Below are positions 4,330 through 39,330 of a stretch of DNA of 64,000 bases, piece after piece. The notes beneath the pieces are model-generated. The model saw nothing but the letters and a program-made list of their open reading frames with translations, was not told where the DNA came from and did not search any database. How positions within the stretch are numbered: position 1 is the first letter of the stretch; each line of letters begins with the position of its first letter. The stretch is from assembly GCF_003342675.1 (NCBI RefSeq), contig NZ_CP031148.1:1674001-1738000 (forward strand). Reading direction: 5' to 3'. A program made the position numbers and the translations under genes. This DNA is from Haloplanus rubicundus (GTDB lineage Archaea; Halobacteriota; Halobacteria; Halobacteriales; Haloferacaceae).

Positions 4330-6255
4330 ATGAGCTCCGTAGACAAGCAACTCGAGGACCTGAAAGCAGAGATCGAAGACGAACTCCCTCCGGGCATCTC
4401 AGTCTCCGACGTGAAATACGAGGGACCGGAACTGGTCGTGTACACGCGCGATCCGAAGGAGTTCGCCAGCAACGGCGACCTGATCCGCAAGCTGGCGAGC
4501 AAACTCCGCAAGCGCATCACGGTCCGTCCCGACCCCGACGTGTTGATGGACGTGACGGCGGCGCGAGAGAAGATTCGCGAGGTGATCCCCGAGGACGCGG
4601 GCGTCACCGACCTCGACTTCCACGTCGACACCGGCGAAGTCGTCATCGAGGCCGAGAAGCCCGGCATGGTGATCGGCCGCCACGGGTCGACGCTCCGCGA
4701 GATCACGAAGGCCATCGGCTGGACGCCCGAGGTGGTGCGCACGCCACCCATCGAATCCTCCACCGTCTCGAACGTCCGCAACTTCCTGAAACAGGAGCGT
4801 GAGGAACGCCGCGACATCCTCGAACGCGTGGGGCGACAGATCCACCGCGAGGAGATGGCGGACGAACAGTGGGTGCGCATCACCACCCTCGGCTGCTGTC
4901 GCGAGGTCGGCCGCGCGAGCTTCATCCTCTCCACCGCGGAGACGCGCGTCCTCATCGACTGCGGCGACAAGCCCGGCGCCGAGGGCGAGGTGCCCTACCT
5001 CCAGGTGCCCGAGGCGGCACCGCTGAACTCCATCGACGCCGTCGTCCTCACCCACGCCCACCTCGACCACTCCGCGCTCATCCCGCTCCTCTTCAAGTAC
5101 GGCTACGACGGCCCCATCTACTGTACGGAGCCGACGCGTGATCTGATGGGTCTGCTCACGCTGGACTACCTCGACGTGGCCGCCAAGGAGGGTCGCACCC
5201 CGCCATACGAGAGCGAGATGGTCCGCGAGGCGATCAAACACACCGTCCCCCTCGAATACGGCGACGTGACCGACATCGCGCCGGACGTGAAGCTCACCTT
5301 CCACAACGCGGGCCACATCCTCGGCTCCGCCGTCTCCCACTTCCACATCGGCGACGGCCTCTACAACGTCGCGTTCTCGGGCGACATCCACTACGAGGAC
5401 ACCCGCCTCTTCAACGGCGCCGTCAACGACTTCCCGCGGGTCGAGACGCTCGTCCTCGAATCGACCTACGGCGGCCGCAACGACTACCAGACGGACCAGG
5501 AGGACTCCGAGCGCAACCTGCTGGATATCATCAGCGACACCCACGAGAAAGGTGGGAAGGTGGTCATTCCGGCCTTCGCCGTCGGTCGGTCACAGGAGAT
5601 CATGCTCGTCCTCGAGGAGGCGATGCGCTCCGGAAAGATACCCCGCATGCCCGTCCACCTCGACGGCATGATCTGGGAGGCGACGGCCATCCACACGACG
5701 TATCCCGAGTATCTCCGGGACAACCTCAGGGATCGGATCTTCCACGAGGACGAGAACCCCTTCCTCGCCGAGGAGTTCAACCACATCGACGCGGGCGAGG
5801 ACGAACGCCAGGAGGTCACCGACGGCGAGCCGGCGATCATCCTCTCGACGTCCGGGATGGTCACCGGCGGGCCGATCATGTCGTGGCTCCGCCACCTCGG
5901 TCCCGACCCGGACTCGACGCTCGTCTTCGTCGGCTACCAGGCCCAGGGAACCCTCGGCCGCCGCATCCAGAACGGCTGGGACGAAATTCCGATGAACGAC
6001 CGCGGCAACGGCCGCGGCGGGCGCGGCAACACCCTCTCGCTGAAGATGGACGTCGAGACGGTCGACGGCTTCTCCGGCCACGCCGACCGGCAGGGGCTGG
6101 AGAACTTCGTCAAGACGATGAACCCTCGGCCGGAGAAGGTGCTCTGTGTCCACGGCGACGAACGCTCCGTCCAGGACCTCTCCTCCGCGCTCTATCACGA
6201 CTACAACATGCGGACGTTCGCGCCGAAGAACCTCGAGACGTTCCGGTTCAAGTAG
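4330..6255 (+). CDS. fttA: aCPSF1/FttA beta-CASP ribonuclease (transcription termination factor)
   Basis: Archaeal CPSF1, a KH-containing metallo-beta-lactamase/beta-CASP nuclease that cleaves nascent RNA at U-rich sites and drives factor-dependent transcription termination. The 641 residues match the family length. Two KH-type domains cover about residues 1-145 (second with GMVIGRHGSTLREI), the zinc motif THAHLDH lies at residues 241-247, and later motifs include SGDIHYEDTRL, an ESTYG segment and, near the C-terminus, SGHADR and CVHGD. ATG 4330 (MSSVDKQLEDL) is chosen because homologues begin here; the frame stays open for 59 more codons to GTG 4153 without conserved-looking sequence. It stands alone after a long leader. 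Confidence 0.97.
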   Translation: MSSVDKQLEDLKAEIEDELPPGISVSDVKYEGPELVVYTRDPKEFASNGDLIRKLASKLRKRITVRPDPDVLMDVTAAREKIREVIPEDAGVTDLDFHVDTGEVVIEAEKPGMVIGRHGSTLREITKAIGWTPEVVRTPPIESSTVSNVRNFLKQEREERRDILERVGRQIHREEMADEQWVRITTLGCCREVGRASFILSTAETRVLIDCGDKPGAEGEVPYLQVPEAAPLNSIDAVVLTHAHLDHSALIPLLFKYGYDGPIYCTEPTRDLMGLLTLDYLDVAAKEGRTPPYESEMVREAIKHTVPLEYGDVTDIAPDVKLTFHNAGHILGSAVSHFHIGDGLYNVAFSGDIHYEDTRLFNGAVNDFPRVETLVLESTYGGRNDYQTDQEDSERNLLDIISDTHEKGGKVVIPAFAVGRSQEIMLVLEEAMRSGKIPRMPVHLDGMIWEATAIHTTYPEYLRDNLRDRIFHEDENPFLAEEFNHIDAGEDERQEVTDGEPAIILSTSGMVTGGPIMSWLRHLGPDPDSTLVFVGYQAQGTLGRRIQNGWDEIPMNDRGNGRGGRGNTLSLKMDVETVDGFSGHADRQGLENFVKTMNPRPEKVLCVHGDERSVQDLSSALYHDYNMRTFAPKNLETFRFK

Positions 6256-7660: not shown

Positions 7661-8074
7661 TCACTCGACGGACAGGGAGAGGGTGAGTGCGGCGCCGCCG
7701 GCCAGTGCCGCGACGAGGTCGCGGTCCAGGTCGGCGGCCGCGGCGTCGGCGCCGACGGCGACGGTGCGGTCGTCGACGTACGTGCTCGTGCGGACGACGG
7801 CGCTCCGGTCGCTCCCGAAGGTGAGGTCGGGATGGCCGCGGGCACGGATCTCGTCGCGCGCGTCCGCGGTTTCGAGCGTCAGCGTGATCGTCGCCGCGGG
7901 GTCGCGGCAGGCGACGGCGAAGTCGTCGTCGAAGTCGGCCGGCGAGCGGTCGGCTTCGATCCCGACGATACAGTCGCCGGCCGGCGTCAGCCAGTCGTCG
8001 GTCGTTACCTCGAAGGTGCTCTCGTGGGTCGCGGCGACGTGTTCGTGGCCGCGCGCCCGAATGACCTCTCGCAT
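7661..8074 (-). CDS. DUF371 family protein
   Basis: A 137-residue archaeal protein of unknown function. The N-terminus MREVIRARGHEHVAATHEST followed by LTPAGDCIVGIEAD closely follows the DUF371 pattern (a His-containing segment, then a GDCI motif). DUF371 proteins are small beta-rich cytoplasmic proteins. The chosen ATG at 8074 places the conserved HEHVAATH segment near the start; the open frame extends 24 codons further upstream but those codons look unconserved. It lies just upstream of nth on the same strand, so the two may be co-transcribed, but nothing in the sequence ties it to DNA repair. Confidence 0.8.
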   Translation of the reverse strand: MREVIRARGHEHVAATHESTFEVTTDDWLTPAGDCIVGIEADRSPADFDDDFAVACRDPAATITLTLETADARDEIRARGHPDLTFGSDRSAVVRTSTYVDDRTVAVGADAAAADLDRDLVAALAGGAALTLSLSVE

Positions 8075-8200
8075 GGGCGGAACTCCCCGAGCGCCCCGGA
8101 TAGCGGTGCCGATTCGTGGTCGTGCCGTCGGCCGTAAGTCGATCAAGATATCGGTCAGTTCAGGCTGACGGATAGCTTGAAACAGTCACAGCCGACAGTG

Positions 8201-8356
8201 TCAGGACCGGGCGACCGTCACCGTCACCGCGCCGCAGGCACACTCGTAGGCCCGCCGCTCGCCCGCCTCGGTCCGCAGCGTCAACATGAGGGCGTCGTCG
8301 TCGAGGGACCGCTCGCATCCGGCCGCCTCGCACGTGCTGGTCAGGTTCTCGAGCAT
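8201..8356 (-). CDS. Very small cysteine-rich protein (possible zinc finger)
   Basis: A 51-residue protein starting MLENLTSTCEAAGCERSL and ending CACGAVTVTVARS. Four cysteines in the arrangement C-x4-C near the N-terminus and C-x-C near the C-terminus, separated by a short beta-like segment (LMLTLRTEAGERRAYE), look like a compact zinc ribbon. Haloarchaea encode many such small zinc-finger proteins, mostly uncharacterised. An alternative upstream ATG at 8383 would add MSVRRLSGS. Coding potential is moderate: codon usage matches neighbours, but the gene is short. Confidence 0.55.
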   Translation of the reverse strand: MLENLTSTCEAAGCERSLDDDALMLTLRTEAGERRAYECACGAVTVTVARS

Positions 8357-8682
8357 ACTTCCCGATAGTCGACGGACCGACATGAAGGCGCGCCATCCCC
8401 GGAGTGAAACTGAAAGTGGAGCGCCCCATCCGCCGGACATTTATATACTCACCACGATACGTGTGAATCCTTCACACGGCCGTTACAGCGGCCCTTGATA
8501 CCGTTTCTCAGGGGTTCGGGCACCGAAGTTTTTATATACATGTCGGCTGTACGTGATACTACCAACGCGCCTTCGGCGCTTGGCGGCATCGCACGCAGAA
8601 TGATCGGGAATTCTTATACACGGCCGGTCGCTGTACGGAGAGCCGCCAGTTTCGCCGGAGCGATGGTATCGAGGTTTCAACA
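8357..8682 (+). promoter_or_regulatory. Long intergenic control region with three TATA-like boxes and a palindrome
   Basis: This 326-base gap contains no convincing gene. It holds TATA-like stretches at 8441-8447, 8529-8538 and 8613-8619, spaced about 85 bases apart, and the dyad GTGTGAATCCTTCACAC at 8461-8477. The second and third boxes are followed by similar sequence (GGCTGTACG and TCGCTGTACGG), so they may be duplicated promoters for the coiled-coil gene. A 49-codon frame from 8540 to 8689 overlaps the next gene start and is not called. Confidence 0.5.
8461..8477. repeat. Palindrome GTGTGAA-TCC-TTCACAC
   Basis: A perfect seven-base inverted repeat with a three-base centre, placed 14 bases after the TATA-like box at 8441. 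It would straddle the expected start site of a transcript from that box, so it resembles an operator. Confidence 0.5.
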
Positions 8683-37566: not shown

Positions 37567-37604
37567 GCCGTGACGCGTTGCCAAGTAATCTTAGAAAGCT
37601 AACA

Positions 37605-37633
37605 TTAATTATCTATAGTGTCAAATATCTATA
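37605..37633 (+). promoter_or_regulatory. AT-rich promoter of the Pro-Trp protein gene
   Basis: TTAATTATCTATA (37605-37617) is followed by a second ATCTATA at 37627-37633, a direct repeat of seven bases offset by 16. One is likely the TATA box. GGAGGGG (37635-37641) lies seven bases before ATG 37649 as a Shine-Dalgarno match. Confidence 0.5.
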
Positions 37634-37648
37634 CGGAGGGGATACTCG

Positions 37649-38470
37649 ATGGGAGACGACATCGACGACCTGATCGAACGGCTGGGAGAACTCGATCCGG
37701 ACGAGCGTCGGGAGCTCTCGCGCCGAATGCAGGCCGACTGGGCCCGACGCGTCGGCGACGCACAGCGGGCGTACGTCGAGCGGCTCGAAGAGGAGAACCT
37801 GGTCGGCGGTGGCGGCAAGGTGTTCCAGCCGATTCCCGGTGAGGAGGAGAAGTGGACCGAGTACTGCCGAGAGCATCCGAACGATCCGATCTGTCTGGCA
37901 GGCTCACCGCCCGCGGTCGGTGACCGGCTCGGCGACTTCCTCGACATTCGGGAGGAGTACCTCTCGCATCTGGAAGAGGAGGGCCTCCTCGACGTCGAGA
38001 CGGCGTCGCCGGGCGGGGGGTTCCGACCGGTCGCGCGCACCTGGGGCGATCCGAGCCCACAGCCGAGCCGCGGTGCCGAATCGCCCGTGGGTCTCACGCC
38101 GCCGCCGGACCCGTGGCCGTGGCCGCCGCAGTGGCCACCGTGGCCGTGGCCGTGGCCCTGGCCGGGGCCGGGACCACGTCCGGGTCCGTGGGGGTACGCC
38201 GACAACGGTGATCCGGTCCCGCTGCCGACGGTCCGTGACAGTCCGTCCGACACGCTCCAGCGCACGCCACTCGGCGGACGCCGGCCGACGAACGCGGTCG
38301 ATCCGCGACGGCTCACCCCCGGGAGCGGGGCCGCGATGTCCCGGGAAGGGCTCACCTTCCCGCCCGACGAGTGGCCGCCGTGGCCGTGGCCGTGGCCCTG
38401 GCCGGGCCCGCGTCCCGACCCGTTCCCGTTCGGAGGCGATCCGATCCCGTTCCCCGCGAGTCGGTGGTAG
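37649..38470 (+). CDS. Proline-tryptophan repeat protein, unknown function
   Basis: A 273-residue protein with no recognised family. Residues 1-125 are charged and helical (DDIDDLIERLGELDPDERRE, then a segment with two cysteines in YCREHPNDPIC). The second half is low complexity: two tracts alternate Pro and Trp (PWPWPPQWPPWPWPWPWPG near residue 152 and WPPWPWPWPWPGPRP near 240), separated by 60 ordinary residues. The sequence ends FPFGGDPIPFPASRW. Neither a signal peptide nor membrane helix is present. The Pro-Trp tracts could form stiff aromatic rods for binding or membrane surface contact; this is inference. Good start signals and promoter support a real gene. The two tracts arose from a near-identical 36-base unit repeated 240 bases apart. 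Confidence 0.75.
   Translation: MGDDIDDLIERLGELDPDERRELSRRMQADWARRVGDAQRAYVERLEEENLVGGGGKVFQPIPGEEEKWTEYCREHPNDPICLAGSPPAVGDRLGDFLDIREEYLSHLEEEGLLDVETASPGGGFRPVARTWGDPSPQPSRGAESPVGLTPPPDPWPWPPQWPPWPWPWPWPGPGPRPGPWGYADNGDPVPLPTVRDSPSDTLQRTPLGGRRPTNAVDPRRLTPGSGAAMSREGLTFPPDEWPPWPWPWPWPGPRPDPFPFGGDPIPFPASRW
38131..38166 (+). repeat. First copy of 36-base Pro-Trp coding repeat
   Basis: This segment, made of GTGGCC/CCGTGG units, matches 38371-38406 at 35 of 36 positions (A against G at the seventh base). The copies are exactly 240 bases (80 codons) apart and in the same frame. Confidence 0.85.
38371..38406 (+). repeat. Second copy of 36-base Pro-Trp coding repeat
   Basis: Near-identical partner of 38131-38166 inside the same gene. 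Sequence diverges immediately after the shared CTGGCCGGG, so the exact match is confined to the repetitive tract. Confidence 0.85.
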
Positions 38471-38544
38471 TCGACGGGGCGGTTCGGCGGCGCGAAACCA
38501 CCGGTTGCGGTACGTTTTTCGGCGTCGCCGCCCTCCCGTCGCGC

Positions 38545-39330
38545 ATGGACGGAACGCTCGATCACGTCATGATGCGGGTCGCCGACCTCGACGACTCGCT
38601 TTCGTGGTACCGGTCGCATCTCGACTACGAGGAGAAGGATCGCTGGGAGGCCGACACGTTCACCATCGTCTACCTCGGCCCCGAGGACATGCACGAGGCG
38701 GGCGCGATGCTCGAACTCACCCACAACCACGACGGCGCCCCCGAGGAGATGGGCGACGCGTGGGGCCACATCGCCGTCCGCGTCGAGGACGTCTACGACG
38801 CCTACGAGGAACTGATGGCCGAGGGCGTCGAGGACTACCGCGACCCCGACTCCTGTGGTGGACGGTACGCGTTCGTGAAAGACCCCGACGGCCACGAGGT
38901 GGAAATCGTCCAGCGCGACCACGGTGCCCGCTGGAGCCTCGATCACACCATGATCCGCGTCGAGGACGCCGACGAGGCGCTCGGCTTCTGGACCCGGAAG
39001 TTCGAACACGTTCCCACCCGTCGCTGGGAGTCGGACACCTTCGCGAACTACTTCACCGAACCGCGGAACGCCCCCGTGGAGGCGATGTCCGTCGAACTGA
39101 CCTACAACTACGACGGCCGGTCGTACACCATGGGCGACGCGTGGGGCCACCTCTGCGTCCGCGTCGACGACCTGCACGAGGACTGGGAGCGTCTGATGGA
39201 ACGCGAGGCCGACGACTACCGCGACCCCGCCTCCTGTGACGACATGTACGCGTTCACGAAGGATGGGGACGGCCACGAAATCGAACTCATCGAGCGCGAC
39301 AGTCTGGAACCGCCGCTGTTCCCCGAATAA
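38545..39330 (+). CDS. Tandem VOC-domain protein, glyoxalase I-like
   Basis: A 261-residue protein composed of two homologous glyoxalase-fold halves. Half one: LDHVMMRVADLDDSLSWYRS, LELTHNHDG, GDAWGHIAVRVEDV and DPDGHEVEIVQR. Half two: LDHTMIRVEDADEALGFWTR, VELTYNYDG, GDAWGHLCVRVDDL and DGDGHEIELIER. The His/Glu/His/Glu metal ligands expected for lactoylglutathione lyase are present in both halves, so detoxification of methylglyoxal or a related dicarbonyl thiol adduct is possible; haloarchaea use gamma-glutamylcysteine, not glutathione. A dioxygenase role is the alternative. It follows the Pro-Trp gene by 74 bases. Confidence 0.85.
   Translation: MDGTLDHVMMRVADLDDSLSWYRSHLDYEEKDRWEADTFTIVYLGPEDMHEAGAMLELTHNHDGAPEEMGDAWGHIAVRVEDVYDAYEELMAEGVEDYRDPDSCGGRYAFVKDPDGHEVEIVQRDHGARWSLDHTMIRVEDADEALGFWTRKFEHVPTRRWESDTFANYFTEPRNAPVEAMSVELTYNYDGRSYTMGDAWGHLCVRVDDLHEDWERLMEREADDYRDPASCDDMYAFTKDGDGHEIELIERDSLEPPLFPE

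Follow-up and report, generated by a model that had tools for sequence, protein, structure and literature searches.

A gene at positions 37649..38470 (+ strand, stop codon included) codes for a 273-amino acid protein of a genuine, selected, lineage-restricted and very rare haloarchaeal family, which is without known relatives and carries a duplicated Trp-Pro arm of an unusual type. The gene lies in the window, the stretch of 64,000 nucleotides of Haloplanus rubicundus that was analysed (genome G000, 3.77 Mb; contig 2, positions 1674001-1738000), and is supported by intact orthologues and dN/dS ratios. Its two-part product (30.5 kDa at full length, pI 4.52, GRAVY -0.93) combines an acidic, helical amino terminal domain (N-domain) with a carboxyl terminal half rich in Trp and Pro. 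Tracts of strictly alternating Trp and Pro that are maintained by selection do not seem to have been described in the open papers or libraries searched. The interpretation given in an earlier note on this DNA holds for the reality of the gene, the lack of a described family and the conservation of the tracts, but not for the aromatic ladder as it was stated. The note did not foresee that both halves are duplicated, that distant homologues are free of tracts and that the gene is being lost in one congener.

Expression signals and reading frame

The intergenic DNA upstream of the gene has a GC content of 40% versus 68% for the window. It includes an AT-rich promoter-like block, TAACATTAATTATCTATAG (37600..37618, + strand), a probable archaeal TATA region whose promoter role is suggested by the upstream GC content and by its conservation in four congeners (G000, G009, G007 and G005). 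The Shine-Dalgarno sequence GGAGG (37635..37639, + strand), positioned 9 nt 5' of the ATG, and the start context show no change across the same four genomes, which bears out the good promoter and Shine-Dalgarno signals reported in the earlier note. No match to Rfam RNA families was found.

Two long open frames, of 551 aa (37621-39276, - strand) and 476 aa (37809-39239, + strand), overlap the gene and the neighbouring glyoxalase gene; such long overlapping frames are a typical feature of DNA with a high GC content. The frame starting at 37649 (+1) is favoured over the long antisense and +2 ORFs by the codon-position counts. The whole-gene dN/dS among the G000, G009 and G007 orthologues is 0.11-0.27. 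Low dN/dS in the tracts, together with changes almost exclusively at third codon positions, argues that the frame is translated and that the tracts are selected. On this codon evidence, the comparison of orthologues shows the 273-aa frame to be translated and under purifying selection.

Trp-Pro tracts and internal duplications

The two tracts in which Pro and Trp alternate, pointed out previously in the second half of the protein, were found at P155-P172 (tract 1, PWPWPPQWPPWPWPWPWP; 38111..38164, + strand) and W242-P252 (tract 2, WPPWPWPWPWP; 38372..38404, + strand), both supported by dN/dS and codon-position counts. Trp accounts for 6.0% of the open frame, the top value among the window's 208 stop-to-stop ORFs with a length of 150 aa or more, against a window background of 0.90% (greedy longest-ORF set). 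The tracts had been considered striking given the rarity of Trp, and these values agree that they are more than chance. The carboxyl terminal half (pI 5.26) holds 15 of the 17 Trp residues. A PWPWPWP-coding pattern occurs in the G000 genome only inside the 273-aa gene and is found in 16 of 391 genomes of the class. Outside the three orthologue carriers, the pattern sites examined in these genomes are short or overlapped ORFs, with no in-frame tract in an apparent main gene.

Regional dN/dS was estimated at dS 0.3-0.9 (0.4-0.6 for tract 1) and, as the intact copies are three, is based on few sites: it amounts to 0-0.03 in tract 1 (aa 153-181), 0.06-0.25 in the segment with tract 2 (aa 239-273), 0.10-0.25 in the N-domain and 0.19-0.54 in the linker. 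Variable sites at codon positions 1/2/3 number 17/16/63 in the N-domain, 1/0/10 in tract 1 and 1/2/7 in tract 2 (aa 239-259). The Pro codons of the tracts have diverged between species (CCG/CCC/CCT/CCA) while the amino acids are unchanged. By these counts the Trp-Pro tracts are the most constrained part of the protein, and neither slippage nor compositional chance would explain them. Tract 1 of G000 has one WP unit more than its orthologues; its exact length is therefore not fixed.

Self-alignment indicates that both tracts are copies of one duplicated module of ~55-63 aa. Copy 1 (aa 134-196; 38048..38236, + strand) and copy 2 (aa 218-272; 38300..38464, + strand) align with a score of 191, while the maximum in 500 composition-preserving shuffles was 129.5. 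Each module reads approximately DP..., GLTxPPD, (Q/E)WPPWPWPWPWPGPxPxP and GDPxPxP.

The N-domain (aa 1-127; 37649..38029, + strand; pI 4.35) was delimited by alignments and AlphaFold2. Its model, obtained with an input of five sequences, is all helical with a mean pLDDT of 70 (moderate confidence), in keeping with the folded appearance attributed earlier to this half. By the same type of alignment the helical half is likewise an internal duplication, with copies at aa 34-62 (RVGDAQRAYVERLEEENLVGGGGKVFQPI; 37748..37834, + strand) and aa 93-128 (RLGDFLDIREEYLSHLEEEGLLDVETASPGGGFRPV; 37925..38032, + strand), scoring 55 versus a maximum of 42 in 500 shuffles. The most conserved stretch, the invariant core FQPxPGxExxWxxxCRxHPxDPxCLxG, is located between the two repeats. 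Residues C73, H76 and C82 are invariant in five aligned N-domains.

Distribution, decay and distant homologues

The gene is intact in G000, G009 (86% identical) and G007 (80% identical). The gene order in the genus is DRG GTPase, TIGR04206 membrane protein, 273-aa protein and glyoxalase-fold protein; the names TIGR04206 and glyoxalase come from searches, while the first neighbour is presumably a DRG GTPase as recognized from its sequence. The G009 and G007 copies are found between the TIGR04206 and glyoxalase genes. The earlier note had proposed to inspect whether homologues keep the tracts: both tracts and the same start are kept in G009 and G007, but the tracts are missing from the distant homologues of genus g27 described below.

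G005 carries a decayed copy, frameshifted by gaps of 4 bp and 1 bp and with a further gap of ~330 bp that deletes both tracts; the second conserved Cys (C82) is also missing. The promoter and start region of this pseudogene (locus L046, G005:C1:366000-382000, at about 7882-8360) are kept. In G001, G003, G004, G006, G008 and G010 the site is empty and the flanking genes adjoin with a short gap. G002 was left out of the site comparison, its closest glyoxalase homologue sitting elsewhere. The TIGR04206 (near_ArtA) gene is syntenic across most of the genus; in G011 (L066, G011:C1:756500-760500) neither it nor the 273-aa gene lies between the genes for the DRG GTPase and the glyoxalase. Most members of the genus have either no copy of the 273-aa gene or a decayed one, so the gene is dispensable.

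In a tree of the DRG and glyoxalase genes the four carriers do not form one clade and two changes are needed, a single clade not being rejected (AU p=0.08). For the 273-aa gene, dS does not fall below the values of the adjacent genes. Recent horizontal transfer is not shown by these data; gain and loss within the genus cannot be told apart.

The N-domain alone, without tracts, is found in two of the four genomes of genus g27, G037 (C1:3963955-3964422) and G057 (C2:63124-63591; loci L006/L007), as proteins of ~155 aa. They are homologous to the N-domain, with 37-42% identity over the aligned part, and share the core FQPxPGGEAEWEKHCREHPxDPxCLLGA and the same internal repeat, which is weaker in the g27 homologue examined (score 49 versus a shuffle maximum of 45.5). 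In contrast to the 273-aa protein they are devoid of the first ~22 residues and of the entire Trp-Pro half, have at their end an unrelated tail of ~50 aa and are encoded at another locus, between what we take from their sequences to be a DUF460-like gene and a tyrosyl-tRNA synthetase gene. The model of the g27 protein is poor (mean pLDDT 60). The occurrence of the N-domain alone in these genomes implies that it is a separable module.

Profile searches in genomes of the class (391), the family (170) and the phylum (393), sets that partly overlap, gave only the six known places, and the matches at E 0.01-1 are unrelated genes or wrong frames. Neither the full protein nor the N-domain matched Pfam-A at E<=5, and a Pfam-A match of the g27 homologues was discarded as a chance match. 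NCBIfam gave no match over the curated cut-off, PADLOC defence families gave none, and the best PHROGs match (E=0.18, a family of unknown function) is not significant. In these four libraries the claim of the earlier note that no described family has such a layout is thus upheld. There was no sequence match in the PDB, and fold searches with the moderate-confidence model gave no significant hit (Foldseek best E=3.2; best VIA Z 3.9), nor was there a convincing match among viral structures. Plasmid and phage collections contained no relative, nor did viral contigs searched by profile. Scans of a collection of genome contigs, in which close records may be lacking, gave no relative either. The open papers searched for WPWPWP or Trp-Pro repeats gave nothing relevant. 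Two tract-pattern matches in viral contigs were rejected as GC-rich low-complexity DNA or a minor frame. Contig IMGVR_UViG_3300010354_000263 (L086) has at about 4740-6095 a low-complexity stretch open in several frames (LALALA, PGPGPG, WPWPWP, QGQGQG) that looks like a simple-repeat array or a misassembly rather than a gene.

Possible roles of the Trp-Pro arm

The earlier note proposed that the tracts form PPII-like aromatic ladders. Read as one aromatic face, this does not fit the PPII period: a PPII face recurs every three residues, and Trp side chains placed at alternate residues would therefore wind around all of its faces. A two-residue face is that of a beta strand, which alternate Pro disfavours, and Trp-Pro and other aromatic-Pro bonds have a raised cis propensity.

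The best explanation, put forward tentatively, is a cytosolic adaptor that presents two flexible Trp-Pro arms on its helical domain to a hydrophobic or aromatic-accepting surface. This soluble acidic protein would stay in the cytosol, as suggested by the lack of a signal peptide or membrane helix apparent by eye. The N-domain would fold as two helix-plus-GGGxFxP units around the invariant CREHPNDPIC loop and would probably bind to itself or to some component of the cell. The carboxyl terminal half, expected to be extended and flexible because it is Pro-rich, would be a duplicated arm presenting two like Trp-Pro ligands. The module flanks GLTxPPD and GDPxPxP are kept with the tracts, and the linker between modules is poorly conserved; binding sites strung along a linker usually show such a pattern. 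The two copies of a conserved motif, separated by variable sequence, point to a bivalent ligand, and the arms might bind a surface (partner protein, membrane or storage granule) two or more times, with avidity. Multivalent proline-rich scaffold tails similarly attach to a folded domain a low-complexity region with several copies of a Pro-rich ligand motif. They differ from the present protein, in which Trp alternates with Pro and a PxxP or PPxY-type signature is not expected. We know of no cognate domain for Trp-Pro ligands in archaea. It is possible, though doubtful, that in the duplicated (WP)n module archaea have a novel type of aromatic-proline ligand arm, with its own receptor surface and set on a new small helical domain. 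If the tracts are ligands, they provide a minimal system for aromatic-proline surface recognition at molar salt, and a tool tag; otherwise the protein is one more lineage-restricted protein without assigned role. A natural series of intact, N-domain only, decayed and absent states is at hand.

A phasin-like role is unlikely, in which the Trp-Pro arms, being neutral, would anchor the protein by insertion at the surface of the archaeal membrane or on polyhydroxyalkanoate (PHA) granules and the N-domain would be the working end. Trp tends to sit at membrane interfaces. Membrane activity is known for indolicidin (ILPWKWPWWPWRR; PMC6017362), the closest Trp-Pro sequence on record; the arms, however, are not cationic like indolicidin. 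Indolicidin and tritrpticin (PMC6017362) are short Pro/Trp-rich sequences with PW/WP repeats and an extended structure, but they are 13-residue cationic products of mammalian cathelicidins without homology to this acidic 273-aa archaeal protein with its folded N-domain. Class III PHA synthase is encoded in 16 of 16 genomes tested, yet it is equally present in non-carriers of the 273-aa gene, and gas-vesicle genes show no association with the gene. About as unlikely is that the N-domain holds the key activity, such as a metal or redox site at C73/H76/C82, and that the arm is no more than a solubility, spacing or translation-slowing element (Pro-rich stretches need aIF5A). The invariance of these residues, the loss of C82 in the decayed G005 copy and the sharing of the N-domain with the g27 proteins speak for it; a mere spacer, though, would not require Trp at every second position, and the linker varies freely between modules while the tracts do not.

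It is very unlikely that the protein is a precursor, its N-domain a leader or immunity part and its Trp-Pro modules released as secreted indolicidin-like antimicrobial peptides. Antagonism genes commonly show what is seen here, two near-identical modules, a patchy occurrence across the genus and decay in one of its species; the resemblance to indolicidin is limited to composition. Against this reading, indolicidin-type peptides are short, cationic and secreted while the protein has 273 aa and is acidic in whole and in its carboxyl terminal half, with neither signal peptide nor processing site evident; the adjoining genes code for no transporter or protease, and the N-domain stands alone in g27. 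Even less probable, and disfavoured, is that the tracts are 6-bp (CCGTGG) slippage arrays expanded without role in a dispensable orphan gene. Tandem Repeats Finder does report two arrays of period 6 (38111-38170 and 38377-38408), the length of tract 1 varies by one unit among species and G005 lost both tracts. However, Pro codons diverged under unchanged amino acids, the dN/dS of tract 1 is below that of its flanks, and the tract loss in G005 came with two frameshifts, in a dead gene. An adaptor with two Trp-Pro arms remains the preferred reading.

A connection of the gene with PHA or gas vesicles was considered and is not supported, as gain and loss of these genes do not track the 273-aa gene. 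Two copies of PHA synthase are encoded by G000, G005, G009 and all g27 genomes and one copy by the other congeners, including the carrier G007; the copy number follows the tree, not the 273-aa gene. The two G000 copies (C2:1344290 and 1813385) are located outside the window, at least 100 kb from the 273-aa gene.
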